A DNA stretch of 64,000 nucleotides from Sebaldella termitidis ATCC 33386 (GTDB taxonomy: Bacteria; Fusobacteriota; Fusobacteriia; Fusobacteriales; Leptotrichiaceae). The notes beneath the pieces were generated by a model. The model did no database searches and had not been told where the DNA came from. It saw only the letters and a program-made list of their open reading frames with translations. The stretch covers positions 3,007,989-3,071,988 of the forward strand of contig NC_013517.1 of NCBI RefSeq assembly GCF_000024405.1, read 5' to 3'. Of this stretch, positions 32,089 through 64,000 are shown piece after piece. Each line of letters starts with the position of its first letter. The stretch's first letter is position 1. A program made the position numbers and the translations under genes.

Positions 32089-32925
32089 ATGAAAAAAGCA
32101 TACAAAGTATTCGAACCAGATTGGATATGTAGGGATTATGACTATAAAAGAAATGGAAATGTAATAGGCGAAATATATGAAATGGATGGAGAAATTGAAA
32201 TATGTGAAAGAGGTTTCCATTACTGCCCTAAATTAGTTAATTGTTTTAATTACTATGGTTTTAATAGCAATAATAAAGTAGCAGAAATAGAAATTTTAGG
32301 TGACATAAAAAATGATGGTGACGATAAAGAAGTTACTAATAAATTTAAGATTATAAGAGAATTATCATGGCATGAGGTACTTGAATTAGTTAATGTAGGT
32401 TCTGGCAATACAGGAAACAGGAACTCAGGAGACTGGAACTCAGGAGACTGGAACTCAGGAGACGGGAACTCAGGAGACTGGAACTCAGGAGACTGGAACT
32501 CAGGAAACTGGAACTCAGGAAACAGGAACTCAGGAAACAGGAACTCAGGAGACTGGAACTCAGGAAACTGGAACTCAGGATATCTAAATACTATTACACC
32601 TGATACTATACTAGTTTTCAATAAAGAGTGTAGCCGAGAAACATGGAATAAAGCTATTAAACCTGATTTCATGTATTTCGATGTTTTAAATAAGTTCATT
32701 TATACTTGTGACATGACAGATGAAGAAAAAGAAAATAATCCTGATTATGAAGCTTTAGGCGGATGTTTAAGAAAAATGACATATAAAGAAGCATGGAAAT
32801 ATAGCTGGAATAATGCTAATAAAGAAAATAGAAAACTTATATTAAAGCTGCCAAACTTTGACAATGAAATTTTCAAAGAAATAACAGGAATAGATGTTTG
32901 CAAAGAGCTTGAAATAGATAAATAA
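32089..32925 (+). CDS. DUF7666-like protein with pentapeptide (NSGxx) repeat domain
   Basis: This is a 278-residue protein. The N-terminal part (~1-100) has EGEIEICERGFHYCPKLVNCFNYY-like features (ERGFHYC...C...YY), as in DUF7666. Eleven pentapeptide repeats of the Asn-x-x-Asn-Ser-Gly/Asp-Trp type follow at ~110-164. The C-terminal part (~165-278) is helical (ALGGCLRKMTYKEAWKYSWNNANKENRK). Pentapeptide-like repeats can fold into a regular stack. The function in phages is unknown; DNA mimicry is only a guess. Confidence 0.6.
   Translation: MKKAYKVFEPDWICRDYDYKRNGNVIGEIYEMDGEIEICERGFHYCPKLVNCFNYYGFNSNNKVAEIEILGDIKNDGDDKEVTNKFKIIRELSWHEVLELVNVGSGNTGNRNSGDWNSGDWNSGDGNSGDWNSGDWNSGNWNSGNRNSGNRNSGDWNSGNWNSGYLNTITPDTILVFNKECSRETWNKAIKPDFMYFDVLNKFIYTCDMTDEEKENNPDYEALGGCLRKMTYKEAWKYSWNNANKENRKLILKLPNFDNEIFKEITGIDVCKELEIDK
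32416..32580 (+). repeat. 15-bp tandem repeat, 11 units, in frame
   Basis: The unit is AACTCAGGAGACTGG and variants, encoding Asn-Ser-Gly-(Asp/Asn)-(Trp/Arg/Gly). The unit length is a multiple of three, so copy-number change would alter protein length without breaking the frame. Confidence 0.9.
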
Positions 32926-51153: not shown

Positions 51154-51184
51154 TATTGCTTTTTTGCAAAAAAAGAGTTATAAT
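51154..51184 (+). promoter_or_regulatory. Repressor promoter with overlapping dyad
   Basis: TTGCTT (51156-51161), 17-bp spacer, TATAAT (51179-51184). The dyad TATTGC-TTTTTT-GCAAAA (51154-51171) covers the -35. A related dyad lies at 52052. Confidence 0.7.
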
Positions 51185-51201
51185 AACATTGGGTGATATT
51201 T

Positions 51202-51855
51202 ATGAATAAATTAGAAGCGCTTGGTAATAAAATCAGAGAATTGCGTGAGAGAAAAAACTGGTCTCTTGACAGGCTTTCAGAAGAGCTTGAGAAAGAAGAT
51301 ATCGATATTGTTCCTTCTACTTTATTTAGAATAGAAAAAGGACAGAGAAAAAAAATCGATACTCTCCTTCTCCTTGGTCTTTCCAAAATTTTAAATTATA
51401 ATTTCTTTCAAATGCTCGACAGTCAGATTTTCAGATCTGAAGATTATATTGAAGTAGATGATCAGAAATTATATATTTACGGTTTTGCTTCTGCGGGAAA
51501 CGGATATCTGGATACCACAGATTATGAAATTATGGAAGTTTCACTTCCAAAAAATATAAGACATAAAAAAGGACTTTTCGGAATTAAAGTTCACGGAGAA
51601 AGCATGGAACCCGAATTTTACAATAACGATATTCTTATCCTTGATCCTTCATGTCCTGAATGGGAAGAACTAAACAATAAGGTTATTGTTGTAGATCTGA
51701 ACAATGAAAGATACGTAAAGCTTTTGAAGTATTATAACGACGGCAGAGCTTATCTTTTCAGCTATAATGAGATTTACCCCCCTATTCAGATCACGGAAAA
51801 TGATAATATTAAATGTATCGGAAAAGTCGTTTACAGTTTTAGATCATACTCATAA
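51202..51855 (+). CDS. LexA/CI-like repressor with intact S24 peptidase
   Basis: This is a 217-residue repressor. The N-terminal HTH (~5-60) has NKIRELRERKNWSLDRLSEEL. The C-terminal S24 domain has the cleavage-type Ala98-Gly99 in FASAGNG, catalytic Ser134 in GESMEP and Lys173 in YVKLL. All parts for RecA-stimulated self-cleavage are present, so DNA damage should induce this locus, unlike the first prophage. Start ATG 51202 follows GGGTGAT. Confidence 0.88.
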   Translation: MNKLEALGNKIRELRERKNWSLDRLSEELEKEDIDIVPSTLFRIEKGQRKKIDTLLLLGLSKILNYNFFQMLDSQIFRSEDYIEVDDQKLYIYGFASAGNGYLDTTDYEIMEVSLPKNIRHKKGLFGIKVHGESMEPEFYNNDILILDPSCPEWEELNNKVIVVDLNNERYVKLLKYYNDGRAYLFSYNEIYPPIQITENDNIKCIGKVVYSFRSYS

Positions 51856-51886
51856 AACAGATTTTTCTGGCAGCAAAATCTGTTTT
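51854..51886 (+). terminator. Intrinsic terminator of the repressor gene
   Basis: AAAACAGATTTT (51854-51865) pairs with AAAATCTGTTTT (51875-51886), overlapping the stop codon. Confidence 0.85.
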
Positions 51887-51921
51887 ATAGTTATCTAAAT
51901 ATTATATTTATAAAATTTATA

Positions 51922-51950
51922 TTGACAAAAAGCAACAAAAATGTTATTAT
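51922..51950 (+). promoter_or_regulatory. Strong promoter of the tail-locus early genes
   Basis: TTGACA (51922-51927), 17-bp spacer, TATTAT (51945-51950), reading toward the zinc-ribbon genes. Confidence 0.75.
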
Positions 51951-52051
51951 ATATCTAACAATAAAAATCACCTTTCCATGAATCAAAAGTATATTTTTCC
52001 TGTTTTTAAAAAATAAAAACTTTTTCAATATACTTTTTATTTTTTATCTTT

Positions 52052-52069
52052 TTTTGCTAAAAGGCAAAA
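52052..52069 (+). promoter_or_regulatory. Candidate repressor operator
   Basis: TTTTGC-TAAAAG-GCAAAA, a perfect 6-6-6 dyad related to the one at 51154, about 100 bases past the early promoter. Confidence 0.55.
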
Positions 52070-52142
52070 TCATATTCAATAAGTTAATTAATTATTAAAT
52101 ATATTAACACACAAAATAATAAATCGAAAGCGGGGAATGAAT

Positions 52143-52292
52143 GTGATAAAAATACAGATACGTTGTAAAACCTGTGGTAAATTGCATATGGAAATTGAGG
52201 TAGAGGGAAGAGTAAAATATGATTTTAAATGTAAAAGGTGTAAAAATACAAATATAGGAGTAATAACACAAAAATTTAACAGTACAACTTAA
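52143..52292 (+). CDS. Com-like Cys4 zinc-ribbon protein, copy 1
   Basis: This 49-residue product has CKTCGK and KCKRCK pairs (Cys8, Cys11, Cys30, Cys33), like Mu Com-type small zinc fingers that bind RNA. GTG 52143 is chosen because it aligns with the ATG of copy 2 and is well spaced from GGGG; an in-frame ATG at 52137 is possible. A 13-base leader CGAAAGCGGGGAA (52125-52137) is shared with copy 2, and a structured element follows the gene. Confidence 0.7.
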   Translation: MIKIQIRCKTCGKLHMEIEVEGRVKYDFKCKRCKNTNIGVITQKFNSTT

Positions 52293-52298
52293 AATATC

Positions 52299-52348
52299 AG
52301 CGTCCCAAGCGGACCTTTCGTATAGAAATATGCGCAGGGTCTCTTTTT
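52299..52348 (+). ncRNA. Structured element / terminator after zinc-ribbon copy 1
   Basis: The block starts AGCGTCCCAAGCGGACCTT, shared with copy 2. Inner hairpin CGTATA-GAAA-TATGCG (52319-52334); outer arms AGCGGACCT (52308-52316) and AGGGTCTCT (52336-52344) pair partly, followed by T-rich sequence. It may act as terminator and as an RNA-protein site. The stretch 52349-52585 after it shows no feature. Confidence 0.6.
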
Positions 52349-52602
52349 ATTACCAAAGCTATCTTTGCAGGCTTATACAATACTAATAATTTTGAATAAA
52401 GTGATAATTTCTAAAAAATGTTTAATTTGTTCACACTTACTTCATATATTCCCTATATAATGAAATATACACATATATCATACATAATTATCATTAACTA
52501 TTAGTTCTCATTTACATCATGTTTTCATTTTAAAAAATATAGTTTTTTATTTTCCATAAACAAAAAAATTAATTCTATTAATGAACGAAAGCGGGGAACA
52601 GC

Positions 52603-52752
52603 ATGATAAAAATTGAAATACGATGTAAAACCTGCGGGAAACTGCATATGGAAATTGAAGTAGAAGGAAAAGTAAAGTATGATTTTAAGTGTAAAAAATG
52701 TAAAATTCAAAATGTAGGAATTATAACCAAAAAATTTAATCAAATACTCTGA
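52603..52752 (+). CDS. Com-like Cys4 zinc-ribbon protein, copy 2
   Basis: A 49-residue paralogue of copy 1, about 80 percent identical by eye, with all four Cys kept (8, 11, 30, 33). The ATG follows GGGGAACAGC. The leader CGAAAGCGGGGAA (52586-52598) is identical to that of copy 1. A recent duplication of the whole leader-gene-hairpin unit is likely. By analogy with Mu Com it could bind an mRNA hairpin; that is inference. Confidence 0.7.
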   Translation: MIKIEIRCKTCGKLHMEIEVEGKVKYDFKCKKCKIQNVGIITKKFNQIL

Positions 52753-52802
52753 ATTACTATATCATCAGATTTTATGATTAAATTCATTGGTAAACAGAAA
52801 AC

Positions 52803-52855
52803 CAGCGTCCCAAGCGGACCTTCTGTATAGAAATATGCAGCAGGCCCGCTTTTTC
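52803..52855 (+). ncRNA. Structured element / terminator after zinc-ribbon copy 2
   Basis: Inner hairpin CTGTATA-GAAA-TATGCAG (52823-52840). Outer stem AGCGGACCT (52813-52821) with AGGCCCGCT (52842-52850), eight of nine paired, followed by TTTTT. Relative to copy 1 an inner C-G pair is T-A here (52824-52839), a compensatory change. Confidence 0.65.
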
Positions 52856-52919
52856 TTTTATCTTTTATTCCCCAAAAGGTAAAAAATAAATATTTAATAA
52901 TATTAAAAAGGAGGAAATT

Positions 52920-53708
52920 ATGAATTCTATCACTAAAAAATATACTTCAAACAAAAGAAAGACAAAATATCTCTTTGCCCTGATGAGTGACATAAATCTT
53001 ACAGAAGGCCATCAAAATCTAAAACTAGCAGAAAAACACCTGAAGGAAGCCAAAGAAAAAAATGCAAGAATTTTGCTTAATGGAAATACTCTTGATTTTT
53101 TTAAGGAAAATAAAAATTTTTATGCAAAAAGAAATCCTGAAAGTGAATTTCAAAAAAAACTCAGTATTGATTTTGCATATGAATTTTTAAGACCCTTTGC
53201 TTCAAATATTGACTTTATCTCATACAAAGACAGCGAACTTATAAATACACTGCCTTTGAAAAAGCTGACAAGCAGATTAAATTACAGCATGGACACCAAT
53301 ATTATCATATGTCCGTCCAAAAACTGGCTTACCTTAAATTTTCAAATGGGTCACTCCGGGTTTAAATACAGAATTTTTTCTGATGAGGGAAAAACTAAAT
53401 CACCTGTTACCAAAGGCAAAATCCAGCACAGCAGACTTGCTCAAAAGATTGACGGTGCAGATGTCATCTGGCTTTTTGGCAAAAACAGCGACTATGAACA
53501 CAGCCGTATTATCGAAACTTTAAATCCAAAAAATGAAATTCTTCATAAAGAAATTCTGGAATTAAGAACACCTTCATATTATAAGAAGAAAAATGATAAA
53601 ACAATCACTGAAATCCCAGAGTCTTCAGGCGGGAGATGGCTGGAAATAGAGCTTCACAGAACTGATAAATTCGGTATTCTAATGACACATAAAAGTTACA
53701 AAATCTAA
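52920..53708 (+). CDS. Phosphoesterase-like protein with lost catalytic residues
   Basis: This 262-residue protein has the layout of a calcineurin-like phosphoesterase, but each catalytic motif is altered. SDIN (24-26) replaces Asp-x-His, LNGNTLD (56) replaces Gly-Asp, SYKDSE (~101-106) replaces Gly-Asn-His-(Glu/Asp), and LFGKNSD stands where Gly-His-x-His is expected; MGHSG (His145) is kept. The family call is by pattern only. If right, it is a pseudoenzyme, perhaps binding nucleic acid. GGAGGAAATT precedes the ATG. Confidence 0.4.
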   Translation: MNSITKKYTSNKRKTKYLFALMSDINLTEGHQNLKLAEKHLKEAKEKNARILLNGNTLDFFKENKNFYAKRNPESEFQKKLSIDFAYEFLRPFASNIDFISYKDSELINTLPLKKLTSRLNYSMDTNIIICPSKNWLTLNFQMGHSGFKYRIFSDEGKTKSPVTKGKIQHSRLAQKIDGADVIWLFGKNSDYEHSRIIETLNPKNEILHKEILELRTPSYYKKKNDKTITEIPESSGGRWLEIELHRTDKFGILMTHKSYKI

Positions 53709-53741
53709 AAACTATTAAATAAAAAAACGGAGGTAAAACCT

Positions 53742-53951
53742 ATGCTTGCAATAACAATTATAATATGTATCTTTTTATTTTTAACTACTGCTCTTATACT
53801 AAGCACTATTGAAAAAAAATACATTGTTAATGATGAACTTGTAGAAATACTTGAAAACCTGAATGAAAGAATCATAATACTTGAAAAAAAATCTAATCCT
53901 GACAGTAACCCTTACTTTCATAAAGGAGGAAGCAATGAAAAAACAATATAA
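53742..53951 (+). CDS. Small membrane-anchored protein (69 aa)
   Basis: One N-terminal membrane helix (LAITIIICIFLFLTTALIL), then a coiled-coil-like LVEILENLNERIIILEKK and a polar tail. It sits shortly before the amidase gene and could be a lysis accessory, but the single helix gives no firm call. CGGAGGTAAAACC precedes the ATG. Confidence 0.5.
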   Translation: MLAITIIICIFLFLTTALILSTIEKKYIVNDELVEILENLNERIIILEKKSNPDSNPYFHKGGSNEKTI

Positions 53952-54360
53952 AGAATATAAAGTCTTTGATAAGGATATTTCTGAATTTATGCTTTCTGAG
54001 GAACTTTCCTTCTATACACACGAAGAAATTGAAATAGAAACCATTGAAGATATTTATGATCTTAATATTACCGATCTGAAAAAAATTATCAATGAAAAAA
54101 TAGAAGCCGGATCTTTTACAGATTTTCTAGAAAAACTATGCAGAAACAGACTTTTGAAAATTATTCCCATGCTTGTTTTAGATGAAAAGGAATTCTTTGT
54201 TTATGATTCATTTTATAAAAACAAAGAAACTCAGAGTGAAATAGGGAAAAAATTAGGAGTTACACGACAATCCGTAAATAAAGTAGTAAAAAAAATAAAT
54301 GATAAATTTGATTATGCCGGAAAGAACATAACTTTACACTATTATGAAGAAATAATATAA
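53935..54360 (+). CDS. Sigma-region-4-like transcription regulator
   Basis: Start ATG 53935 after AAAGGAGGAAGCA, overlapping the previous gene by 17 bases. The 141-residue protein has an N-terminal helical part and a C-terminal HTH: YKNKETQSEIGKKLGVTRQSVNKVVKKI reads like sigma70 region 4 / ArpU-type activators. Identical promoter-like boxes lie 0.6 kb downstream before the structural genes. A late activator is the likely role. Confidence 0.6.
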   Translation: MKKQYKEYKVFDKDISEFMLSEELSFYTHEEIEIETIEDIYDLNITDLKKIINEKIEAGSFTDFLEKLCRNRLLKIIPMLVLDEKEFFVYDSFYKNKETQSEIGKKLGVTRQSVNKVVKKINDKFDYAGKNITLHYYEEII

Positions 54361-54387
54361 GAATTCTATATAAAAAGGAGAAAAGCT

Positions 54388-54945
54388 ATGAAATATAACG
54401 AAGTAATAAAAAGACATCTTACCATTAACAAGAAGAGAACGGGAAAAAAACTAGATTTCAAATGGATCACTGTACATAACACCGGTAACCCGAAAAGCAG
54501 TGCCGATAATGAAAGACGCTGGCTTGATAATCCTGAAAACACCACATCTACCGGCTGGCATATTGTGGTAGACGGAAAAGAAGCTATTGAAGCAGTTCCC
54601 CTTGATGAAATAGCTTATCATGCCGGAACAGGCGAAGGCAATTCCACAAGCATTGGAATAGAAATATGTGACAGTGCGGGAACTGCCGCTGAAAAACAGG
54701 CCGTTGAACTTATCGCGGATCTTTTGATAAGAAAAAACTGGGGAATCGATAAAGTCCGGACACATAAATCTTGGAGCGGGAAAATCTGTCCGCATTTAAT
54801 CCTTCCCAGATGGAATCAGTTTACCAAAGATATTGAAGAGGAAATAAAAAAACAGAAATCTCTTTCTGGTGCTGACGGCTCTTCTAAAAAAGAGATTGAG
54901 CTCTTTGATAAATCAGGAAATTTACTCGGAAAAATTATACTGTAA
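54388..54945 (+). CDS. N-acetylmuramoyl-L-alanine amidase (Amidase_2)
   Basis: This 185-residue lysin has WITVHNTGNP (His30), STGWHIVVD, IAYHAGTGEGN, SIGIEICD (Glu92), VRTHKSWSGKICPHL (His126, Cys134). These give the zinc ligands and catalytic Glu of type-2 amidases. The ~30-residue C-terminal tail may bind the wall. It cuts the MurNAc-peptide bond and would release particles by lysis. The stop lies inside the first promoter box. Confidence 0.9.
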   Translation: MKYNEVIKRHLTINKKRTGKKLDFKWITVHNTGNPKSSADNERRWLDNPENTTSTGWHIVVDGKEAIEAVPLDEIAYHAGTGEGNSTSIGIEICDSAGTAAEKQAVELIADLLIRKNWGIDKVRTHKSWSGKICPHLILPRWNQFTKDIEEEIKKQKSLSGADGSSKKEIELFDKSGNLLGKIIL

Positions 54946-54977
54946 ACTATTTGGTTTACTAATCTGTATATATTGAG
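54941..54977 (+). promoter_or_regulatory. Promoter-like box 1 for tail genes
   Basis: TGTAAACTATTTGGTT (54941-54956), 10 bases, TATATATTGAG (54967-54977). The box contains the palindrome GTAAAC-TATTTG-GTTTAC when read two bases on. Identical layout to box 2. Confidence 0.65.
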
Positions 54978-54996
54978 AACAGCAAAAATTTTTCGG

Positions 54997-55033
54997 TGTA
55001 AACTATTTGGTTGTCTCTTTACTATATAGTGAG
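54997..55033 (+). promoter_or_regulatory. Promoter-like box 2 for tail genes
   Basis: TGTAAACTATTTGGTT (54997-55012), 10 bases, TATATAGTGAG (55023-55033). Same box, same spacing and near-identical -10 as box 1, 56 bases downstream. Confidence 0.65.
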
Positions 55034-55276
55034 GAGGGGTAAAAGTTATTCTCATTGCTTAATTATTTTCTGAAAATTAAGCACTTTGCATACCTTTTAT
55101 TCTGACTTATTCATATATATCATTTCAATATGACAGTTTTAAAATAAATATGATTTACTCAGTTTTGTTTTAAAAATGTCCAAAATACAGGAATGTCCCT
55201 GAAGAAAAATTTTTCACTTCTCTTCCTTGATTATCTAAAATTTTTCTTCATACAGTCTTAAATTCAGGAGGAAAAT
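55034..55276 (+). promoter_or_regulatory. Leader with two inverted repeats
   Basis: GCTTAATT/AATTAAGC (55057-55064/55075-55082) and a perfect 13-bp pair GAAGAAAAATTTT/AAAATTTTTCTTC (55201-55213/55237-55249) with a 23-base loop lie before the first structural gene. No T-run of terminator type; possible leader structures. Confidence 0.45.
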
Positions 55277-55675
55277 ATGTCAGAAAGCGCTTTCTTGGAA
55301 AAAATAAAAAAAGTTCATTTTCATGGTGAACTTATGACAAATTCATGTAAAACCCTGGAAAAAGAGGTGGCATTTCTTGAAAAAGAGCGTCACTCTTTGA
55401 AATCACAATTAGGTCATGCCCGAAAAGAAATAAGGGATTTTAAGGCACTTCTAAAAGAAAAAAACGTTCTTCTTACAAAAAAAGAAAAAGAACTCCAAAC
55501 TATTAATTTAGAAATCATTAAAAGAGACCTGATGGAAAAGCATATGGTTAATATGTGCTTCAAAAAGCATATCATAGTTCATTTTGATATGGATGAAAAG
55601 GAATTGGAAAAAAATATCCTGACTTTTAAGTCTAGTCTGGAAATATTTAAAAATGAAATTTTAAACAGATCATAG
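55277..55675 (+). CDS. Coiled-coil protein (132 aa)
   Basis: First gene after the promoter boxes, AGGAGGAAAAT before the ATG. Residues ~22-95 are strongly helical and charged (EKEVAFLEKERHSLKSQLGHARKEI), clearly a coiled coil. It may be a tail-assembly helper or regulator; no family recognised. Confidence 0.6.
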   Translation: MSESAFLEKIKKVHFHGELMTNSCKTLEKEVAFLEKERHSLKSQLGHARKEIRDFKALLKEKNVLLTKKEKELQTINLEIIKRDLMEKHMVNMCFKKHIIVHFDMDEKELEKNILTFKSSLEIFKNEILNRS

Positions 55676-55729
55676 TTCGCTTGACTGTTTAGAAAGCTGA
55701 ATTCTCTAATTTTTGAAAGGAGAAAAGCA

Positions 55730-56200
55730 TTGAATACTTTTGATATTACAAAGTTACTGAAAGGTGAAGCCAGAGCACTTATTCTGGAAAATGTCAATAT
55801 TACCGACATACATATTTATGATGATGACTTCACCAACAAATCAGATATACAGAATAATGATTCAATTATTCTGTATTCTGTAAGACTCTCCAAAGCATAT
55901 GAAGGTTTTGTTAATTATTTAAGTAATGACAAATCTATATGCAATCTGGTTTTTGAATCTTCTGTCACTCTTCAGACCAGAGACGAGTCAGTGAACCTTG
56001 GTGATCTTATGCTCTACATTTCAAATGACAGAGAAATCACCAAAAGATTTTCAAATTCCCATAATAAACTGGAAAAGAATATAAAAAATATCACTCCTAT
56101 TCAGAATTCCAATTTTATTGAGAACGATCAAAAATGGTTCAAACAGATTTTAACATTTAATTTTATTTACGAGGGGGAATATACAAATGGCAATATATAA
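55730..56200 (+). CDS. Tail terminator-like protein
   Basis: A 156-residue protein starting at TTG 55730, chosen because GAAAGGAG lies at proper spacing and no ATG is near. It sits just before the sheath gene, the place of the tail terminator that caps the tube. The C-terminal WFKQILTFNFIYEGEY strand fits. It overlaps the sheath gene by 14 bases. Call by position. Confidence 0.5.
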   Translation: MNTFDITKLLKGEARALILENVNITDIHIYDDDFTNKSDIQNNDSIILYSVRLSKAYEGFVNYLSNDKSICNLVFESSVTLQTRDESVNLGDLMLYISNDREITKRFSNSHNKLEKNIKNITPIQNSNFIENDQKWFKQILTFNFIYEGEYTNGNI

Positions 56201-57320
56201 GCCTACTTTAAACTTTTTAAATACTGTAAAAGTTGAGACAAAATACTCAAAGAGTTACGTACAGGATCCTAGAGATGCTCTGTTTTTATCCACTGTAAAA
56301 GACGTGGAGCCTACTATCATTACTGAAGCCGCTGATTTACTGGAATTAGGTTTTGCCGCTTCTGATGTTATGTATAAGAAAGTGGCTGACGCTCTGGCTC
56401 AGGGAGGGATAGACACAATTATAGTTTATGGTGTAGATGTATCTGCTGATGCTGTTAATCTCACACCTGAAAGAATTATGGAAAAGTATGAAAATGAACC
56501 GGCTGCATTAAACTACTCTATTCTTATACTTGATGTAGTTAATCTGGAAAATGCTAAAAAATGGGCTGCTGCTTTTAAGCCGTTAGTTGATTCAAAGCAC
56601 CTTTTTGTTCAGCTTGATAAAGTAAATAATACTTTGACAGATATAGAAGCATTCAGAGCTGCTTATGCCGCTGCAAATATAACTACTTTTATAGCTGATA
56701 ATGATGAAAATATTGATAATGTGGATGCTATTACATGGGCAAGAATGAGAAACAGAGATTTAGGATCATATATTGTTCACTCTACTGAGGTAAGAGGTGT
56801 TAGACAACCAGATTTTACTAAAACTGAACAGGTTACTATGAAAAATGCCGGTCTAAATTTTATCTCCAATCCTATAAGAGGAAAATTCCATATACAGAAC
56901 GGACTTGCCAATAACGGCGAGCCTGTAGAACTGCATCTTTATAAATTATGGGAATTGTGGACATTAAAAGAAAGACTTACAAGACTGCAGATAGAAATTG
57001 ATAAGATTCCTGTTAACCAAAGCGGTTTTGAAATGATAGAAGCTGTAATAAAAGGGGTTGTTTTTACTGCTAAGAATATGGGAATTGCAAAATCTGTCAA
57101 TGGAGATCCTTTTGCTATTGAAAGTAAAACAGATTCAGATGGAAATACCGTTAACTATTTGTTAGGTAAAGTAGAATTACAATTTCCATCTGAAGAAGAT
57201 ATCAGAAATTCTGATTTCAAATTCAGATATTTCCATACTTTATTAGATGGAGTAAGACATGTTGATGTAGCCGGATATATTTCACAAACCGGGGAACTTG
57301 TATTAGGAGGTAACAAATAA
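56187..57320 (+). CDS. Tail sheath protein
   Basis: This 377-residue protein shows a sheath layout. TIITEAADLLELGFAASDVMYKKVADALAQGG near residue 35 matches the early domain of DUF3383/XkdK-like sheaths (compare SLQELIDLGFTDTDLAYRYV in the prophage sheath). The end ...HVDVAGYISQTGELVLGG is the C-terminal strand that interlocks subunits. The next gene is the tube. Contraction drives the tube through the target envelope. Confidence 0.8.
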   Translation: MAIYKPTLNFLNTVKVETKYSKSYVQDPRDALFLSTVKDVEPTIITEAADLLELGFAASDVMYKKVADALAQGGIDTIIVYGVDVSADAVNLTPERIMEKYENEPAALNYSILILDVVNLENAKKWAAAFKPLVDSKHLFVQLDKVNNTLTDIEAFRAAYAAANITTFIADNDENIDNVDAITWARMRNRDLGSYIVHSTEVRGVRQPDFTKTEQVTMKNAGLNFISNPIRGKFHIQNGLANNGEPVELHLYKLWELWTLKERLTRLQIEIDKIPVNQSGFEMIEAVIKGVVFTAKNMGIAKSVNGDPFAIESKTDSDGNTVNYLLGKVELQFPSEEDIRNSDFKFRYFHTLLDGVRHVDVAGYISQTGELVLGGNK

Positions 57321-57757
57321 TGATTAATTATAACTGGCAGAATGTGCATATAACTATGATATCAGATGATTTACCTGGCGGGGTATTAAAATTTGAATGC
57401 CTTCATGAGGAGGGCTTCAAAGATGAGAAAAAAGAAGAAGCAATACAATCCGTAGCTTTAAGCTGCGGACAAACAATAAATATTTCTAATAATAACAATG
57501 AATACACTCTGACTTTAGGTCTAGGTTATGGTACTGAAGAAGAAAAAACTTTAAATACTTTTTATCAAAAAGTGGCAGCTTTGAAACCAACTTATGATTT
57601 AACTATAGTTGTAAAAGATAATAATAACGGATCAGTTATAACATATCCAGGAGCTATTATAACTAAACCTTCTACTATAGTTCACAAAAAAGACGGAGCC
57701 TTAGATGCTAAAGTTTGGGAGTTTAAGGCTGAGAATAGAACTATTATATATGTATAA
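57320..57757 (+). CDS. Tail tube protein
   Basis: A 145-residue beta-rich protein following the sheath (one-base overlap). Segments VALSCGQTINISNNNNEYTLTLGLG and the end KVWEFKAENRTIIYV fit the tube fold. Size matches the prophage tube (144). Hexamers form the inner tube of the particle. Confidence 0.72.
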   Translation: MINYNWQNVHITMISDDLPGGVLKFECLHEEGFKDEKKEEAIQSVALSCGQTINISNNNNEYTLTLGLGYGTEEEKTLNTFYQKVAALKPTYDLTIVVKDNNNGSVITYPGAIITKPSTIVHKKDGALDAKVWEFKAENRTIIYV

Positions 57758-57782
57758 AAAATAAAATTTGAGAGGGGAAAAA

Positions 57783-58289
57783 ATGGAAAAAAGAAATTTG
57801 AAAGCTAATAATTTTGATAAAGATAATGAAATAAAAAAAATACAGGAAGATTACCTTCAGGAAATAAAAAATGACAGTGGGATAATTGATTCTTTAATTC
57901 AACCAACAGAAGAACCTGTAAATTTAGAATTGTTAGCTAAAGAAAAAAATCTACAAGAAGCCTTGAGATTAAAAAATGAAACAAAAATAAAACAAGGTGA
58001 CAGAATAAATTATTTTATGATAGATTTAGATGAAAGATTACGAGAAATATCATTTAAATTTCCTGCTACAAAACTAATTATCGAACTATCCGAATACGGC
58101 ATTTCCAGCGACGGACGTTTATTTCTAGACCTTACAAAATCTGTTGATTTACTTATCAAAAACAATCTTTTTATTAATAAATTTGATATTGATGAATTTT
58201 ATCAGGATCAGATAGAAGGGTTTGGTGGTTTCTTAATAGGATTATTAAGAAATCCCAGAAAATTTATACAAGACATATCTGAAAGATAG
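57783..58289 (+). CDS. Tail assembly chaperone, upstream frame
   Basis: A 168-residue helical, charged protein between tube and tape measure. Start ATG 57783 after GAGAGGGG. Residues ~85-160 contain INYFMIDLDERLREISFKFPATKLIIELSEYG and EGFGGFLIGLLRNP. The Pro codon CCC (58254-58256) followed by A lies eleven codons before the stop and is the candidate slip site to the next frame. Confidence 0.65.
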   Translation: MEKRNLKANNFDKDNEIKKIQEDYLQEIKNDSGIIDSLIQPTEEPVNLELLAKEKNLQEALRLKNETKIKQGDRINYFMIDLDERLREISFKFPATKLIIELSEYGISSDGRLFLDLTKSVDLLIKNNLFINKFDIDEFYQDQIEGFGGFLIGLLRNPRKFIQDISER

Positions 58290-58551
58290 TTCAAAATTAA
58301 ATAGTGAACTTATAATTAAAGATATTAACTTTATAGAAACTTTAGCTTTTGAATTGGAAATAGAGGGTTTTTTCCCCTCTTTCAATTCATTAAAATTTTT
58401 ATCCCGTTATAAAAACGGTGAAATATCTGATTATGAATTTGATATTTTTTTAAAACAAATCTCCTATTCGAGATATCTTAAAGAAAATAAAATTGATAAT
58501 CAATTCATAGCAAATCAGTATATAACCGGCTTTGTAAAAAGTTTCAAATAA
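58255..58551 (+). CDS. Tail assembly chaperone, +1 frame extension
   Basis: The +1 frame is open from a stop at 58246-58248 to 58551 and passes through the upstream gene's stop. Its first start-like codon is TTG 58354 with no ribosome site, so it is best read as a frameshift extension. A +1 slip at CCC-A would give 158 + 97 = 255 residues, closely matching the 161 + 98 = 259 predicted in the prophage. The extension contains FPSFNSLKFLSRYKNGEIS. Confidence 0.6.
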   Translation, partial: PENLYKTYLKDSSKLNSELIIKDINFIETLAFELEIEGFFPSFNSLKFLSRYKNGEISDYEFDIFLKQISYSRYLKENKIDNQFIANQYITGFVKSFK

Positions 58552-58568
58552 TGATAAAGGGGTTAAAT

Positions 58569-61004
58569 ATGAGTATAGATAAAACGTTTATAAATCTGGA
58601 TTCTCTGATCGATTCTGCTGCACTAGAAAAAGTTATTAAAGATATTGAAAATAACATTAAGCATCTTGAGACTACTGCTGAAAAACTTCTTGAAATTTTA
58701 AATACAAAAGATGTTAAAAATACCTTGAAAACCACCGCACAATTTGGAATTTTAGCACTTAATGCTTCTGCTATTGCTAAAATAATAAAACTATTGGAAA
58801 ATAGTTACAAAAATATTGAAATTTCTAATCTAGATCATGTTATTTTAGTTTTAGAAAAAATGCTGGAAGTATTTGATGCATTTGAAGAGGTAAAAAATAA
58901 AATAAAGAGTACAAGCAAAGATAATGGTAATTTTTATAAAGATAATATATTTGATTCCTTAATGAATATTTTTCTGGTTGCCAAAGATACTTTAGAGATG
59001 CTTGCAATAGAAAAAATAATTGAAATACTTAAAAATAGTTTCAAAAGTTTAGATCTTTCTGAATTAGATGATTTAATGGATGCATTAAGAAAAATAATTG
59101 AGGTATTTGAAGCTATTGAAGAAGTAAAAAATAAGATAAAAAGTATGAGTATGGATAATGGTAATTTTTTCAAAGATAATATATTTGATTCTTTAAAAGA
59201 TATTTTTATTGTTTTAAAAGATGCTTTGGAAATTGGAATAGTTGAGGTTATCTTAAGATTATTGAGAAAATATCTAGAAACAGCAAATATGGCTGAATAT
59301 GATACTCTTATTGCTTCATTGGAAAAACTCATTGAAGTATTAGATGCTATTGAAGCTGTAAGAAATAAAATCAAAAGTATGAGTATTGACAGTAACTCCT
59401 TTTTTAAAGATAATGCCTTTGATTCATTAAAAAATCTTTTCATTGTTTTAAAAGACTCCATAGAAGTTATTTTAATTGATATGATTTTAAGGGCTTTACG
59501 AAGTTATATGAAAAAAATGGATATGGTTAAATATGACAATCTTATAGCTGCATTAAAAAAATTAACTGAGGTTTTAAAAGCAATTGAAGAAGTAAAAAAT
59601 ACTGTAAAAGGTATGACTACTTCTAATGGTGTTTTTAACTTAAGTAAAATTCTTGGATTTGTTCCTGCTTCTCTTGAACTTACTGTTGATATCGGATCTA
59701 TTATTTTTTTACAGGAAATCATAGAATTAATGGCTGGAGCATTCTCAAAAATAGATTCTAAAAAGATGGACCAGCTTATTGTTGATTTGAACAAAATGAA
59801 AGAAGTTTTAGTGACTATAAGAGAAGTTAAAGAATTTATTGAAGATATGACTGAGTCTAACGGAGTTTTTAATTTAAGTAAAATTCTCGGTTTTATTCCT
59901 GCCTCACTTGAACTTACAGTTGAAATCGGAGCTCTTACATTTATCCAGAAATTAATTGATTGGATGAGTGGACAATTCAGAAAAATAAAATCTCAGAATA
60001 TGAATAGACTTATTACAGATTTAAACAGACTAAAAAAAGTTCTAAAATCCATAAGGGAAGTTAAAGAATACATTGAAGATATGACACAGTCTAACGGAAT
60101 TTTTAAAGCGAGTACAATTTTTGGCTTTGTTCCTGATTCTATTGAAGCTGGTGTTGACATACTTGGATTAATTGCAATACAAAAATTAGTTGATCTTATG
60201 AGTGAGCAATTTCAAAATAATAAATTGACAAACCTCGAAAGTGTTACCGCTGAATTAGAAAAACTCAAAACCTTGCTCTCTTCAATAATGACAATCAAAA
60301 ACTATATTGAAAGTATGACAGATTCAGACGGTATGTTTAAAGGTACAAAAACTTTTGGCTTTGCAGCTGAAACTGCCGAAACTACTGTTGATATTATTGG
60401 AATAACTGCTATTCAAGGAATGTTAAAGTTAATGGAAGGAGCATTTAAAAAAATCAGTTTTAATGATGTTGAATTATTTACTGGAAAACTTAATAAATTA
60501 TTGGAAGTAGTCAGTAAAATTAAAGAGATTAAAGATACTATAGCTTCCCTAACCAATACTGATAATTTTTTCTCTAAAGACGGCATATTAAAAACACTTG
60601 CTACTTTTTTGGGATTTGGCAGCGAAGCTAAAGAAGAAGTAAATTTTCTAAAAACTATGCAGAAAAATATAAATGCAATAAATTCAGAAAGTATGGACAA
60701 ACTTTTGAACACTTTATCGAAAATGCTTGAGATTATTGAAAAAATAAAATTATTGAAAGGCAATCTGCAAATTCCAGAAAGTGGAAGCTCTTTATTAGAT
60801 TCGGGCAATATAAATGAATTGAATAATGGGATTTTAGATACTTCTCAAATTATTAAAAACAATATTACTAATGATAATTTGTTCAAAAATCCAGATGAAC
60901 AAACAAAACCACAAAATAACATAACTTTAAATATTGGAAATATAGCAAATAAATATGATTTTGACTATATTATAGAAAAATTAACCACACTTCATTTGAG
61001 TTAG
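58569..61004 (+). CDS. Tape measure protein built of ~78-residue repeats
   Basis: This 811-residue protein has start MSIDKTF after AAAGGGG. Eight copies of a ~78-residue helical unit end with motifs such as VKNKIKSMSMDNGNFFKDN. The marker positions are near 116, 195, 274, 351, 429, 506, 586 and 662. Copies 1-3 share DNGNF-KDNIFDSL; copies 4-7 share SNGVFNLSKILGF-type motifs. Location after the chaperones and length identify the tape measure, though its repetitive sequence differs from usual ones. Confidence 0.7.
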   Translation: MSIDKTFINLDSLIDSAALEKVIKDIENNIKHLETTAEKLLEILNTKDVKNTLKTTAQFGILALNASAIAKIIKLLENSYKNIEISNLDHVILVLEKMLEVFDAFEEVKNKIKSTSKDNGNFYKDNIFDSLMNIFLVAKDTLEMLAIEKIIEILKNSFKSLDLSELDDLMDALRKIIEVFEAIEEVKNKIKSMSMDNGNFFKDNIFDSLKDIFIVLKDALEIGIVEVILRLLRKYLETANMAEYDTLIASLEKLIEVLDAIEAVRNKIKSMSIDSNSFFKDNAFDSLKNLFIVLKDSIEVILIDMILRALRSYMKKMDMVKYDNLIAALKKLTEVLKAIEEVKNTVKGMTTSNGVFNLSKILGFVPASLELTVDIGSIIFLQEIIELMAGAFSKIDSKKMDQLIVDLNKMKEVLVTIREVKEFIEDMTESNGVFNLSKILGFIPASLELTVEIGALTFIQKLIDWMSGQFRKIKSQNMNRLITDLNRLKKVLKSIREVKEYIEDMTQSNGIFKASTIFGFVPDSIEAGVDILGLIAIQKLVDLMSEQFQNNKLTNLESVTAELEKLKTLLSSIMTIKNYIESMTDSDGMFKGTKTFGFAAETAETTVDIIGITAIQGMLKLMEGAFKKISFNDVELFTGKLNKLLEVVSKIKEIKDTIASLTNTDNFFSKDGILKTLATFLGFGSEAKEEVNFLKTMQKNINAINSESMDKLLNTLSKMLEIIEKIKLLKGNLQIPESGSSLLDSGNINELNNGILDTSQIIKNNITNDNLFKNPDEQTKPQNNITLNIGNIANKYDFDYIIEKLTTLHLS

Positions 61005-61012
61005 GAGGAAGA

Positions 61013-61669
61013 ATGAGTTTACTAAATGAATGGATTATGGAAAATCTGGGAATTGATATGAAAAGTTGGGAACAAAAATTAACAAAATCACAAAAGAAAG
61101 AAAACTCTACATTCAGAGAACCCAATGGAATGTTAGGTAATATTCCTGTTTCTATCATTGAATTTCAGTATTCTAATAATAACAATATAAGTAATAATAA
61201 AATGATTTATAACAAAGAAATTGCTGATCATATTAATAATGAAGCATTTTCTATAAATTTACAGATATTATGTTATGGTGAAGAATATTTAGAAGAAATA
61301 AAAAAATTACAAACTTTAATCAGGGAAGAATCTGCTTCAAGTGCAGTTATTCCACTTTATTATGCTGGAACAAATGAATATTATTTTCCACTGGCTATAA
61401 CAAGTTTAAATTTTTCCAACAATAGTAAAAGTAGATATTTTCAAAAGATTTCCTTACAATTAAAAGAAGTCAAAATATATAAAACACTCAATGATTATTC
61501 AGATAAACTAACTACAAATACTCTCAATAAAGAGGAATTTTTCCAGAATAAAAATCTTACTAAATTTGAAATACCTGCTAACCTAAAAGAAGAAATTCAA
61601 AAATCATCTGTATATAAGAAATTAGAAGGAGGTGTAAATAATGTTATCCAAAATATCTTTAGAGTATAA
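61013..61669 (+). CDS. Baseplate / distal tail protein
   Basis: A 218-residue protein directly after the tape measure, GGAGGAAG before the ATG. The middle (~60-165) is beta-rich with FSINLQILCYGEEYLEEIKKL. The N-terminus is amphipathic. It holds the slot of XkdP-like or Dit-like proteins, without a LysM repeat visible, as in the prophage counterpart at 1962. Confidence 0.5.
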   Translation: MSLLNEWIMENLGIDMKSWEQKLTKSQKKENSTFREPNGMLGNIPVSIIEFQYSNNNNISNNKMIYNKEIADHINNEAFSINLQILCYGEEYLEEIKKLQTLIREESASSAVIPLYYAGTNEYYFPLAITSLNFSNNSKSRYFQKISLQLKEVKIYKTLNDYSDKLTTNTLNKEEFFQNKNLTKFEIPANLKEEIQKSSVYKKLEGGVNNVIQNIFRV

Positions 61670-61982
61670 TACACTAAAAGAAAATAATATAAGAATACTT
61701 TTAAATGATGGAACTAACAATAAAATTATTAAATTATCCCTTTATTGTATAAGAAATAATTGGTATGTTGATATTTATGACAGCACTACACCTTTACTTT
61801 TAGGGCAAGTTTTAAATACATGGATTGATTTATTTGAAATTATAAAAATCCATTATAAAAACTTTCCAAATTTACTTCTCACTGCTTTACCGTCTAACAT
61901 AAATGGAATTAACAAGGAATTCAACAAATCTGTTGCTGGTATAACACAAGAAATATTTATAGTAGGAAATTCAAATGAATAA
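61641..61982 (+). CDS. Baseplate plug-like protein (DUF6983 type)
   Basis: A 113-residue protein with IIKLSLYCIRNNWYVDIYDSTTPLLLGQVLNTWIDLFE. This is the N-x-x-W-Y-x-D-I-x-D...L pattern of Pam3 gp18-like plug proteins, which seal the tube end at the baseplate. It overlaps the previous gene by 29 bases, with GGAGGTG before the ATG. Confidence 0.55.
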   Translation: MLSKISLEYNTLKENNIRILLNDGTNNKIIKLSLYCIRNNWYVDIYDSTTPLLLGQVLNTWIDLFEIIKIHYKNFPNLLLTALPSNINGINKEFNKSVAGITQEIFIVGNSNE

Positions 61983-62901
61983 AAAAGAATATCATTTTAA
62001 CAGATATATCAAGCTCATATTTACTTTAATGGACGGTGAAGAAACTTATGAGTTTGAACTTGATACTAGTTTCATAGATATAGAAACAAAAGTTAGTCTA
62101 AGTACTAATATCGAAAAAGATGACCATGCTATTTATTCAAACAAAGCTTCTATTACTATTTATAATCTTCCATTAAAAATAAAAAACGAATTGCTTGAGA
62201 ATACACCTGTTACAATTACTGCAGGATATCTTGATCTTCCAGAAACTCAAGGAGTAATTTATAATGGAATTATAGAAAATGTATCTGAATCTTCAGATGG
62301 AGTGACTTCGAGAACTCAAATTCAATGTAGTGAGGCTAATGATGAATTTCAAAAACTAAAATATATAATTTCTATAAAAAAAACACAAGTAAAAGCCAGT
62401 GAAGTTTTAAAACGTATTTCCGAACATAGTAAATTAGAATTTGAAATCCAAAAGCTAGGAATAGATCTCATATATACAAGGGCCAGAACTTACAACGGAA
62501 CATTGAAACAAATAATACAAAGTATAGCCAGAGACACAAACAGTCATGCATTTATAAGCAGAAGAAAAATATTTTTTTTGGATAATAAAGAACCTGTACT
62601 TGATGAATTAATCTGTGATATTGAAAAAGTAAAAAATATTACAGAGACTGATACCGGGTATTCTATTGACATGATTTTTGATCATAGAATGGAGCCAAAT
62701 TATAATTTAAGTATTAAATATGAAGGAAATCGATTTAAAAAATCTTTAGAAGGAATATACAAAATAATAAGAGTTGAACATGACCTTAGTGCTCTAAATA
62801 ATTCTTTTACTTCCAAAATAGAACTTGAAGATAGTTTAAAAAGTATACAGACTAAAGAAAAAAATGAAAATTATCCAAAAGAAATTAAAATTGAAATTTA
62901 G
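61975..62901 (+). CDS. Baseplate hub protein (gpD/XkdQ-like)
   Basis: A 308-residue protein with the hub N-terminal pattern SLSTNIEKDDHAIYSNKASITIYNLP. VTITAGYLDLPETQGVIYNGIIENV follows, then a C-terminal part with IRVEHDLSALNNSFTSKIELED, all typical of hub proteins under the spike. It overlaps the plug gene by 8 bases. Confidence 0.72.
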   Translation: MNKKEYHFNRYIKLIFTLMDGEETYEFELDTSFIDIETKVSLSTNIEKDDHAIYSNKASITIYNLPLKIKNELLENTPVTITAGYLDLPETQGVIYNGIIENVSESSDGVTSRTQIQCSEANDEFQKLKYIISIKKTQVKASEVLKRISEHSKLEFEIQKLGIDLIYTRARTYNGTLKQIIQSIARDTNSHAFISRRKIFFLDNKEPVLDELICDIEKVKNITETDTGYSIDMIFDHRMEPNYNLSIKYEGNRFKKSLEGIYKIIRVEHDLSALNNSFTSKIELEDSLKSIQTKEKNENYPKEIKIEI

Positions 62902-62910
62902 GAGATTTAT

Positions 62911-63549
62911 ATGAGAAAAAGTTTAGATTATATTTTTCAAAAAAAACAAAAAGATTTTTATGAAACATTAAATAATATCAATACAATTGCTTTAGCAAGA
63001 ATAATTGAAGTAGATAATCAGAAATTAGAAGCTAATATTCAGCTAACTGCCAAATCTGAATTTAGGGGTCAATTTATTGAAGAAGGCCCTATTTATATGG
63101 TTCCTATTCTTCCTATTTTTAATTCTTCTAATTTTTTTATTAATGCTCCTTATGAATCCGGTGATTTAATTGTTGTTGGATTTTGTCAGCACTCTCTGGA
63201 AGGAATAATTGATGAAACTGATCAAACTGAACCTTTATCAAAAGATAAATACTCACACAATGATGCAATTATTTTGGGTAATATTACTTCTCAATACAAG
63301 GATTCATTTCCAAATGATATATCTATCCTACATAAAAATACAGGAAATTATATTCGAATCACTTCTGCTGGTAATATAGAAATACAAGGAGATACTAAAA
63401 TAATTGGAAGTCTAGAAGTAACTGAAAAAGGAAAATACGGTGGATTACTGGAATCGAATACTGATGTACAAAGTAATAACGTCAGCCTAATAAATCATAT
63501 TCATACAAATGTGACATCAGGCTCTGAAAATACAGGAGGTCCAAAATAA
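62911..63549 (+). CDS. Central spike protein (Gp138/gpV-like)
   Basis: A 212-residue protein with an N-terminal OB-like domain (~20-110: ALARIIEVDNQKLEANIQL, MVPILPIFNSSNFFINAPYESGDLIVVGF). A beta-helical shaft follows (NYIRITSAGNIEIQGDTKIIGSLEV) and a tip NHIHTNVTSGSENTGGP with His-x-His that can bind a metal ion, as in phage spike tips. It pierces the target outer membrane. Confidence 0.75.
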   Translation: MRKSLDYIFQKKQKDFYETLNNINTIALARIIEVDNQKLEANIQLTAKSEFRGQFIEEGPIYMVPILPIFNSSNFFINAPYESGDLIVVGFCQHSLEGIIDETDQTEPLSKDKYSHNDAIILGNITSQYKDSFPNDISILHKNTGNYIRITSAGNIEIQGDTKIIGSLEVTEKGKYGGLLESNTDVQSNNVSLINHIHTNVTSGSENTGGPK

Positions 63550-63911
63550 TGAAAAGTAATGAAAATTGGTTAATGGACAATACAGGTGATATAAAAATCA
63601 AAAAAAATATTATATTAACTGAACCTGAGGAAACCATTGCACAAAGATTACAAAATAAAATTTCTCTTAATTATAAAGAATGGTTTCTTCATGAAAGCGA
63701 AGGAGTAAATTGGTTTGGAACAGAAAATTTAGAAGGAAATATTGGAAAAAAACTGACTGAACTTGTACTTGATTCACAAATAAAAAACTATATAAATTCT
63801 GACAAGGATGTAAGTAAAATTTTAGATTATACAACAGATTTTTCAAATAATGGAAACTATAATATTAAAATTTCTATTGCTACTAACAAGAATGGAATAA
63901 TAAAAATTTAA
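63549..63911 (+). CDS. gp25/XkdS-like baseplate wedge protein
   Basis: A 120-residue protein starting in the stop of the spike gene. ETIAQRLQNKISLNYKEWFLHESEGVNWFG is the helix and E-G-V-x-W core of DUF2634/gp25-like proteins, which link the baseplate to the first sheath ring. Confidence 0.8.
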   Translation: MKSNENWLMDNTGDIKIKKNIILTEPEETIAQRLQNKISLNYKEWFLHESEGVNWFGTENLEGNIGKKLTELVLDSQIKNYINSDKDVSKILDYTTDFSNNGNYNIKISIATNKNGIIKI

Positions 63912-63927
63912 AAGGAGGGAAATTTAA

Positions 63928-64000
63928 ATGGGAATACTCACTCCTATTGGATACAAAAAAGAAACATTTTCAGAACATTTAGCTAATATAGAAAAGCGTT
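63928..64000 (+). CDS. Baseplate J-like protein, N-terminal fragment
   Basis: An ATG after AAAGGAGGGAAATTT begins MGILTPIGYKKETFSEHLANI and runs off the window. The first residues and the place after gp25 fit gpJ/XkdT-type baseplate proteins. Confidence 0.55.
   Translation, partial: MGILTPIGYKKETFSEHLANIEKR

Follow-up and report, generated by a model that had tools for sequence, protein, structure and literature searches.

Introduction

The closest described counterparts of the gene cluster considered here, a contractile tail locus that we call R1, are the R and F pyocins, PBSX of Bacillus subtilis, diffocin of Clostridioides difficile and the double tailocin clusters of Pseudomonas chlororaphis. 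R1 begins near the right-hand end of a 64,000-nucleotide stretch of Sebaldella termitidis ATCC 33386 (the window, C1:3007989-3071988, C1 being its contig in a genome of 4,486,650 bases and three contigs), and it is discussed together with two further headless tail loci of that genome, one siphophage-type (the F locus) and one P2-type. Sebaldella lives in termite guts, so that work on it would do without a pathogen, and, unlike the diffocin host, it has an outer membrane. R and F pyocins pair a headless contractile tail with a flexible one in a single genome, as Sebaldella does, and they have an autocleaving repressor, a late activator and shared lysis genes, a PrtR/PrtN-like logic that is predicted for Sebaldella from sequence. 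The pyocins, however, lie side by side at trpE-trpG, whereas the Sebaldella loci are ~1-3 Mb apart (contig coordinates); moreover, the Sebaldella activator is sigma-like, with its own copy in R1 and in the F locus, and the third locus has the operator only. PBSX is a bactericidal particle of phage-tail type governed by a repressor, Xre, and a small late activator of sigma-like kind, Xpf; the genes of R1 predict a similar pair. Head genes are retained in PBSX, which packages DNA of its host, whereas R1 is headless.

Diffocin is an R-type tailocin from outside the Proteobacteria and is SOS-induced (PMC6088184), as the genes of R1 suggest R1 to be, but the Sebaldella sheath profile matches no solved structure by sequence. 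The P. chlororaphis clusters hold several tailocins of different origins with shared lysis, a likeness to Sebaldella, but hold them in one cluster rather than at three unlinked loci (PMC12090994). According to a 2024 review, a genome with more than one tailocin would have to coordinate them carefully (PMC12090994), and the Sebaldella genome may offer a testable answer in the operator and late-promoter motifs common to its unlinked loci. The literature searched, which left out most subscription papers, yielded no account of a tailocin from Sebaldella or any other member of the Fusobacteriota. On that literature, the new part would be that three headless loci, though unlinked, are controlled together, as shared DNA motifs suggest.

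Results and Discussion

R1 as a probable R-type tailocin locus

The best explanation of the region is headed by the reading of R1 as a domesticated R-type (contractile) tailocin locus, which we consider very likely. Four observations make this the best reading: R1 is headless, it occupies the same site ahead of radC in four genomes, its genes are under purifying selection and it has a head-bearing relative. R1 spans 51193-68898 (17.7 kb, from open reading frames (ORFs) and profile searches) in an extended window numbering, the stretch past 64000 having been read from the window genome's own sequence. It holds a complete contractile set of sheath, tube, tape measure, baseplate, spike and fibres, its lysis gene is an amidase, and neither R1 nor either flank has terminase, portal, capsid or integrase genes (ORFs, profiles, extended sequence). 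The original prediction, made from the window alone, had described regulators, a sigma-like factor and an amidase leading into a headless contractile tail set, and ORFs and profile searches (sheath, Dit-like, plug, hub, spike, gp25-like) agree. Its description of the tail set as full holds for R1 overall and not within the window, which ends within J at 64000, before I and the fibres. It had asked for head genes to be sought past that point and had named terminase, portal and capsid genes after the baseplate genes as a refutation; none are there, and J, gpI, the fibre, the tip proteins and a small membrane protein are succeeded by radC. Its tailocin reading is further supported by the S24 repressor and the lack of an integrase, and its "Fusobacterium-like" host was rightly placed, the genus being Sebaldella (Leptotrichiaceae, Fusobacteriota). 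The adjacent prophage that it had taken as complete (582-37583) does have head genes, and a serine recombinase. R1 would then probably be a weapon against related bacteria. Its features are as follows.

51155..51190, + strand: repressor promoter with palindromic box TTGCTTTTTTGCAA, a putative autoregulatory operator; in all four Sebaldella genomes with small changes
51193..51855, + strand: helix-turn-helix and S24 peptidase repressor, SOS-type (Pfam Peptidase_S24 3.7e-20; PHROG repressor 1e-36)
51922..51960, + strand: early promoter/operator TTGACAAAAAGCAA with a -10-like box downstream; conserved in 4/4 genomes
52137..52292, + strand: Com-like zinc-ribbon mini-protein 1, a CxxC..CxxC ORF conserved in R1, the F locus and a prophage
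52296..52352, + strand: terminator-type hairpin 1 with conserved leader CAGCGTCCCAAGCGGA; compensatory changes
52603..52752, + strand: Com-like zinc-ribbon mini-protein 2 (PHROG "translational regulator" 0.005)
52801..52857, + strand: terminator-type hairpin 2
52920..53708, + strand: ORF of 262 residues, kept in 4/4 genomes (68-93% identity), without family match
53742..53951, + strand: small membrane protein, 69 residues, one hydrophobic segment
53935..54360, + strand: sigma-like late activator (predicted), C-terminal sigma region-4-like helix-turn-helix (sigma70 superfamily 6e-6, below cut-off)
54388..54945, + strand: N-acetylmuramoyl-L-alanine amidase (endolysin; Amidase_2 3e-18; PHROG amidase 1e-42)
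54942..55040, + strand: late-promoter motif GTAAACTATTTGGTT-10-CTATATAGTGAGG in two tandem copies (from 54942 and from 54998), past the amidase gene and ahead of the tail genes; 4/4 genomes
55277..55675, + strand: coiled-coil-like ORF, 132 residues
55730..56200, + strand: tail completion-type protein, 156 residues (38% to the pre-sheath gene of the 0.91-Mb prophage)
56187..57320, + strand: contractile tail sheath (PHROG tail sheath 1e-11; 68% to the prophage sheath)
57320..57757, + strand: tail tube (68% to the prophage tube; PHROG 280)
57768..58289, + strand: tail assembly chaperone-type protein (55% to the prophage homologue)
58354..58551, + strand: second small ORF ahead of the tape measure; similar ORF in G002
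58551..61004, + strand: tape measure protein, 817 residues, with tandem 78-residue repeats (autocorrelation at lag 78); C-terminus common to other tape measures
61013..61669, + strand: Dit-like baseplate/hub protein (Pfam Dit_like 2.7e-6)
61641..61982, + strand: baseplate plug, Pam3 gp18-like (Pfam 1.4e-4, just under cut-off; 53% to prophage)
61975..62901, + strand: baseplate hub, gp41-like (Pfam 3e-9; PHROG 1.7e-37)
62911..63549, + strand: central spike with Apex motif (Pfam Apex 9e-6)
63549..63911, + strand: gp25-like baseplate wedge (PHROG 1.7e-13)
63928..65103, + strand: baseplate J (the window ends within J at 64000)
65096-65749, beyond the window: gpI
65736-66908, beyond the window: fibre, gp10_C type
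66922-67728 and 67748-68584, beyond the window: two paralogous tip proteins
68599-68898, beyond the window: small membrane protein

In each of the four Sebaldella genomes, namely the window genome (G000) and three metagenome-assembled genomes (G001, G002 and G003), the R1 gene set stands ahead of radC and has the same host genes to its left, and no head genes were found in the assembled parts of R1 in the latter three. Against G001 or G002, the ratio of non-synonymous to synonymous substitution rates (dN/dS) of R1 genes is 0.03-0.22, indicating purifying selection, and the dS of many of them resembles that of radC (0.17 and 0.68), indicating that R1 has been inherited along with the chromosome. 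These features describe a stable chromosomal locus, and they bear directly on whether R1 could be what is left of a prophage after loss of the head genes, decaying and without function. Although R1 shares its ancestry with complete prophages, all of its ORFs are intact, its regulatory motifs are kept in four genomes and its site is fixed in the genus; with no broken genes, integrase or relaxed selection (att sites were not searched), we regard decay as improbable. The capsid and packaging genes of a gene transfer agent are likewise absent from R1 and its flanks.

A relative in the same genome is a myoprophage at C1:910-929 kb (the 0.91-Mb prophage of the list), whose tail genes follow the order of R1 at 30-70% identity and have terminase, portal, scaffold and capsid genes ahead of them; it differs from R1 in those head genes, in having another tape measure and in lacking R1-type promoters. 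Given that sheath and tube are 68% identical between the two and that the genome holds several head sets, R1 tails might be imagined to serve heads encoded elsewhere, for example by this prophage, as part of a split phage or of a system for phage interference or mobilisation. We think this very unlikely, since each related prophage owns a full tail, the R1 promoter motifs are missing from the prophages scanned and the tape measures of R1 and this prophage are dissimilar. Relatives of the R1 sheath in three family members (G005, G024 and G025) all sit within head-bearing prophages, and among the 60 nearest genomes the sheath family was confined to Sebaldella and those prophages. In viral collections neither the sheath nor the tape measure of R1 had a close relative, a profile search giving only 31-32% relatives, and among GenBank phages the sheath found only weak matches, to Acinetobacter phage sheaths.

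The 262- and 132-residue ORFs have no known function and would leave room for R1 as an extracellular contractile injection system with an effector (Afp/PVC/MAC-like) instead of a pore-forming tailocin. Profile searches of R1, however, found no AAA+ ATPase or toxin-like gene, and the phage tape measure, SOS-type repressor, amidase and phage-like gene order also speak against such a system, which we consider scarcely credible.

A shared putative operator at three unlinked headless loci

By sequence, the R1 repressor is of the SOS type that had been predicted: its helix-turn-helix and S24 domains are accompanied by the motifs SAGNG, GESM and YVKLL, which supply the A-G, Ser and Lys autocleavage signature of RecA-responsive repressors, and it is 82-96% identical in the three congeners. 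The exact 14-mer TTGACAAAAAGCAA of the early operator occurs three times in the 4.49-Mb genome, against ~0.2 expected and none for a reversed control, with one site each at R1, the siphophage-type locus (C1:62004) and the P2-type locus (C1:972386), all three of them headless. The motif was defined from the R1 and C1:62004 sites, so the C1:972386 site was a prediction, and it was this third copy that led to the unsuspected P2-type locus.

The F locus (C1:62398-79086) is a headless siphophage-type cluster flanked by uppS-cdsA-dxr and frr-pyrH-tsf-rpsB. It encodes a tail tube (Phage_tube_2 3e-16) and a tape measure of 1734 residues, and carries tip genes, Com-like genes and the sigma-like gene. 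It is also found in G002 beside the same uppS-cdsA-dxr genes, and the clusters related to it, here and in other genomes, belong to complete prophages that have terminase, portal and capsid; a siphophage tail without sheath or head, and with head-bearing relatives, is what characterizes an F-type tailocin. The P2-type locus (C1:973030-985886) is headless and contractile, with a sheath (PHROG 23, 4.5e-70, scored on the G001 copy), an FII tube (9e-41), gpD, gpV, gpU, J, I and two fibres; host genes flank it, and a homologous part is present on G001:C164. Neither the F nor the P2-type locus has a repressor gene or a recognised amidase gene, R1 alone of the three having both.

From the common operator, the R1 repressor probably also controls the F-type (C1:62-79 kb) and P2-type R (C1:972-986 kb) loci. 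We moderately favor a dispersed regulon in which the self-cleaving repressor of R1 would run three unlinked headless loci of separate phage origins, with R1 supplying control and lysis and the sigma-like factor firing R1 and F. An inverted copy of the operator was also seen in G001:C16 (L117:6061-6074), near the end of another set of tail genes and a small ORF.

Proposed late control and mechanism

The sigma-like gene is present in R1 and the F locus and absent from the P2-type locus. The F-locus paralogue is 71% identical to the R1 copy and passes the Pfam Sigma70_r4 cut-off, with a weak match (E=0.014) to the NCBIfam "positive control sigma-like factor"; a fold model of the R1 protein gave weak matches (best E 0.03), sigma factors leading the list. 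Scanned with a matrix built from the R1 late-promoter sites alone, the F locus gave three sites, which scored 34.1, 27.5 and 22.8 where the null maximum was 16.0; no site in the P2-type locus or the scanned prophages scored comparably. Mainly from this co-occurrence of gene and motif in R1 and F, we infer that the sigma-like protein reads the GTAAACTATTTGGTT-10-CTATATAGTGAGG promoters. Upstream, every Com-like mini-gene of R1 and F has a hairpin and T-run on its 3' side, most copies with the leader CAGCGTCCCAAGCGGA, and the hairpins show compensatory changes at four pairs among 9 copies. A transcript that starts at the early promoter has to cross these terminators before it arrives at the sigma-like gene, and we speculate that antitermination might be involved.

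In the mechanism we propose, DNA damage would cause the S24 repressor to cleave itself, opening the early promoter at TTGACAAAAAGCAA for production of the Com-like proteins, the 262-residue ORF, the amidase and the sigma-like factor, which would in turn switch on the late promoters and with them the tail genes. The repeat-built tape measure would set the length of the assembled tail, and the amidase together with a small holin-like protein would lyse the cell, although assigning a holin among the small membrane proteins of R1 is a guess. Fibres of the released particle would bind a related cell, which contraction would kill. The same repressor would act on the F and P2-type loci through the shared operator, making R1 the hub for control and lysis.

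Several points weigh against this explanation. The evidence on R1 comes from sequence, and the Sebaldella metagenome-assembled genomes are fragmented, with breaks within the R1 tail genes of G001 and G002 and the G001 sheath missing from its assembly. Two of the three TTGACAAAAAGCAA sites defined the motif, leaving only the third as independent, and promoter-like matches become more likely through the overlap of the motif with a -35 box (TTGACA). The sigma-like protein matches region 4 only, and falls below most cut-offs. Finally, the F and P2-type loci could also use lysis genes of other prophages.

Tape measure and exchange of the inner tail genes

The tape measure of R1 has a repeat period of 78 residues, with a mean BLOSUM62 score at lag 78 of 1.57 against a shuffled maximum of -0.45. 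The repeat was absent elsewhere among 98 Fusobacteriota genomes, save for a shared C-terminus in G003. Strongly hydrophobic segments like those in the group's other tape measures are missing from the protein (Kyte-Doolittle maximum 1.73, compared with 2.2-3.2), and the tape measure of the P2-type locus is likewise low (1.28); the R1 tape measure may have lost a DNA-ejection function. A repeat-built tape measure in a locus without DNA to eject would provide a natural test of the requirements for setting tail length.

Relative to G002, the outer genes of R1 are close (repressor to sheath 92-97%, J to the first tip protein 86-98% identity) and the inner ones diverged (tube 79%, Dit-like 37%, spike 66%, gp25-like 62%), with a tube dS of 2.1 and a tape measure alignable over only ~50 C-terminal residues. 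These alignments indicate that the inner tail cassette (57320-63911, tube to gp25-like) is exchanged relative to G002 while the fibres stayed. Fibres are usually the most variable part of a tailocin (PMC12090994), so that R1 and G002 present the reverse of the usual pattern, the inner cassette having changed and the fibres having been kept. Compared with G003, the fibres differ as well.

Neighboring genes and minor observations

Ordinary host genes lie to the left of R1 (45.6-51 kb), and to its right are, in order, radC (69393), two PSP1 genes, a methyltransferase gene, rpoD (sigma factor) and dnaG (primase); no replication genes were found in or beside R1. A likeness of the 262-residue ORF to a degenerate metallophosphoesterase, seen by eye, was dropped, as the protein has no family match and its fold model is poor (predicted local distance difference test, pLDDT, 39). 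Rfam gave only one sub-threshold match, to a plant-type microRNA family on the opposite strand, which we take as chance. In the Leptotrichiaceae genome G005, the sheath gene of the prophage is split into two ORFs (L035:9398-10557), so that prophage may be inactive. The prophage adjacent to R1 contains an ORF (window 32089-32925) with short tandem NSGDW/NSGN repeats of pentapeptide-like character.

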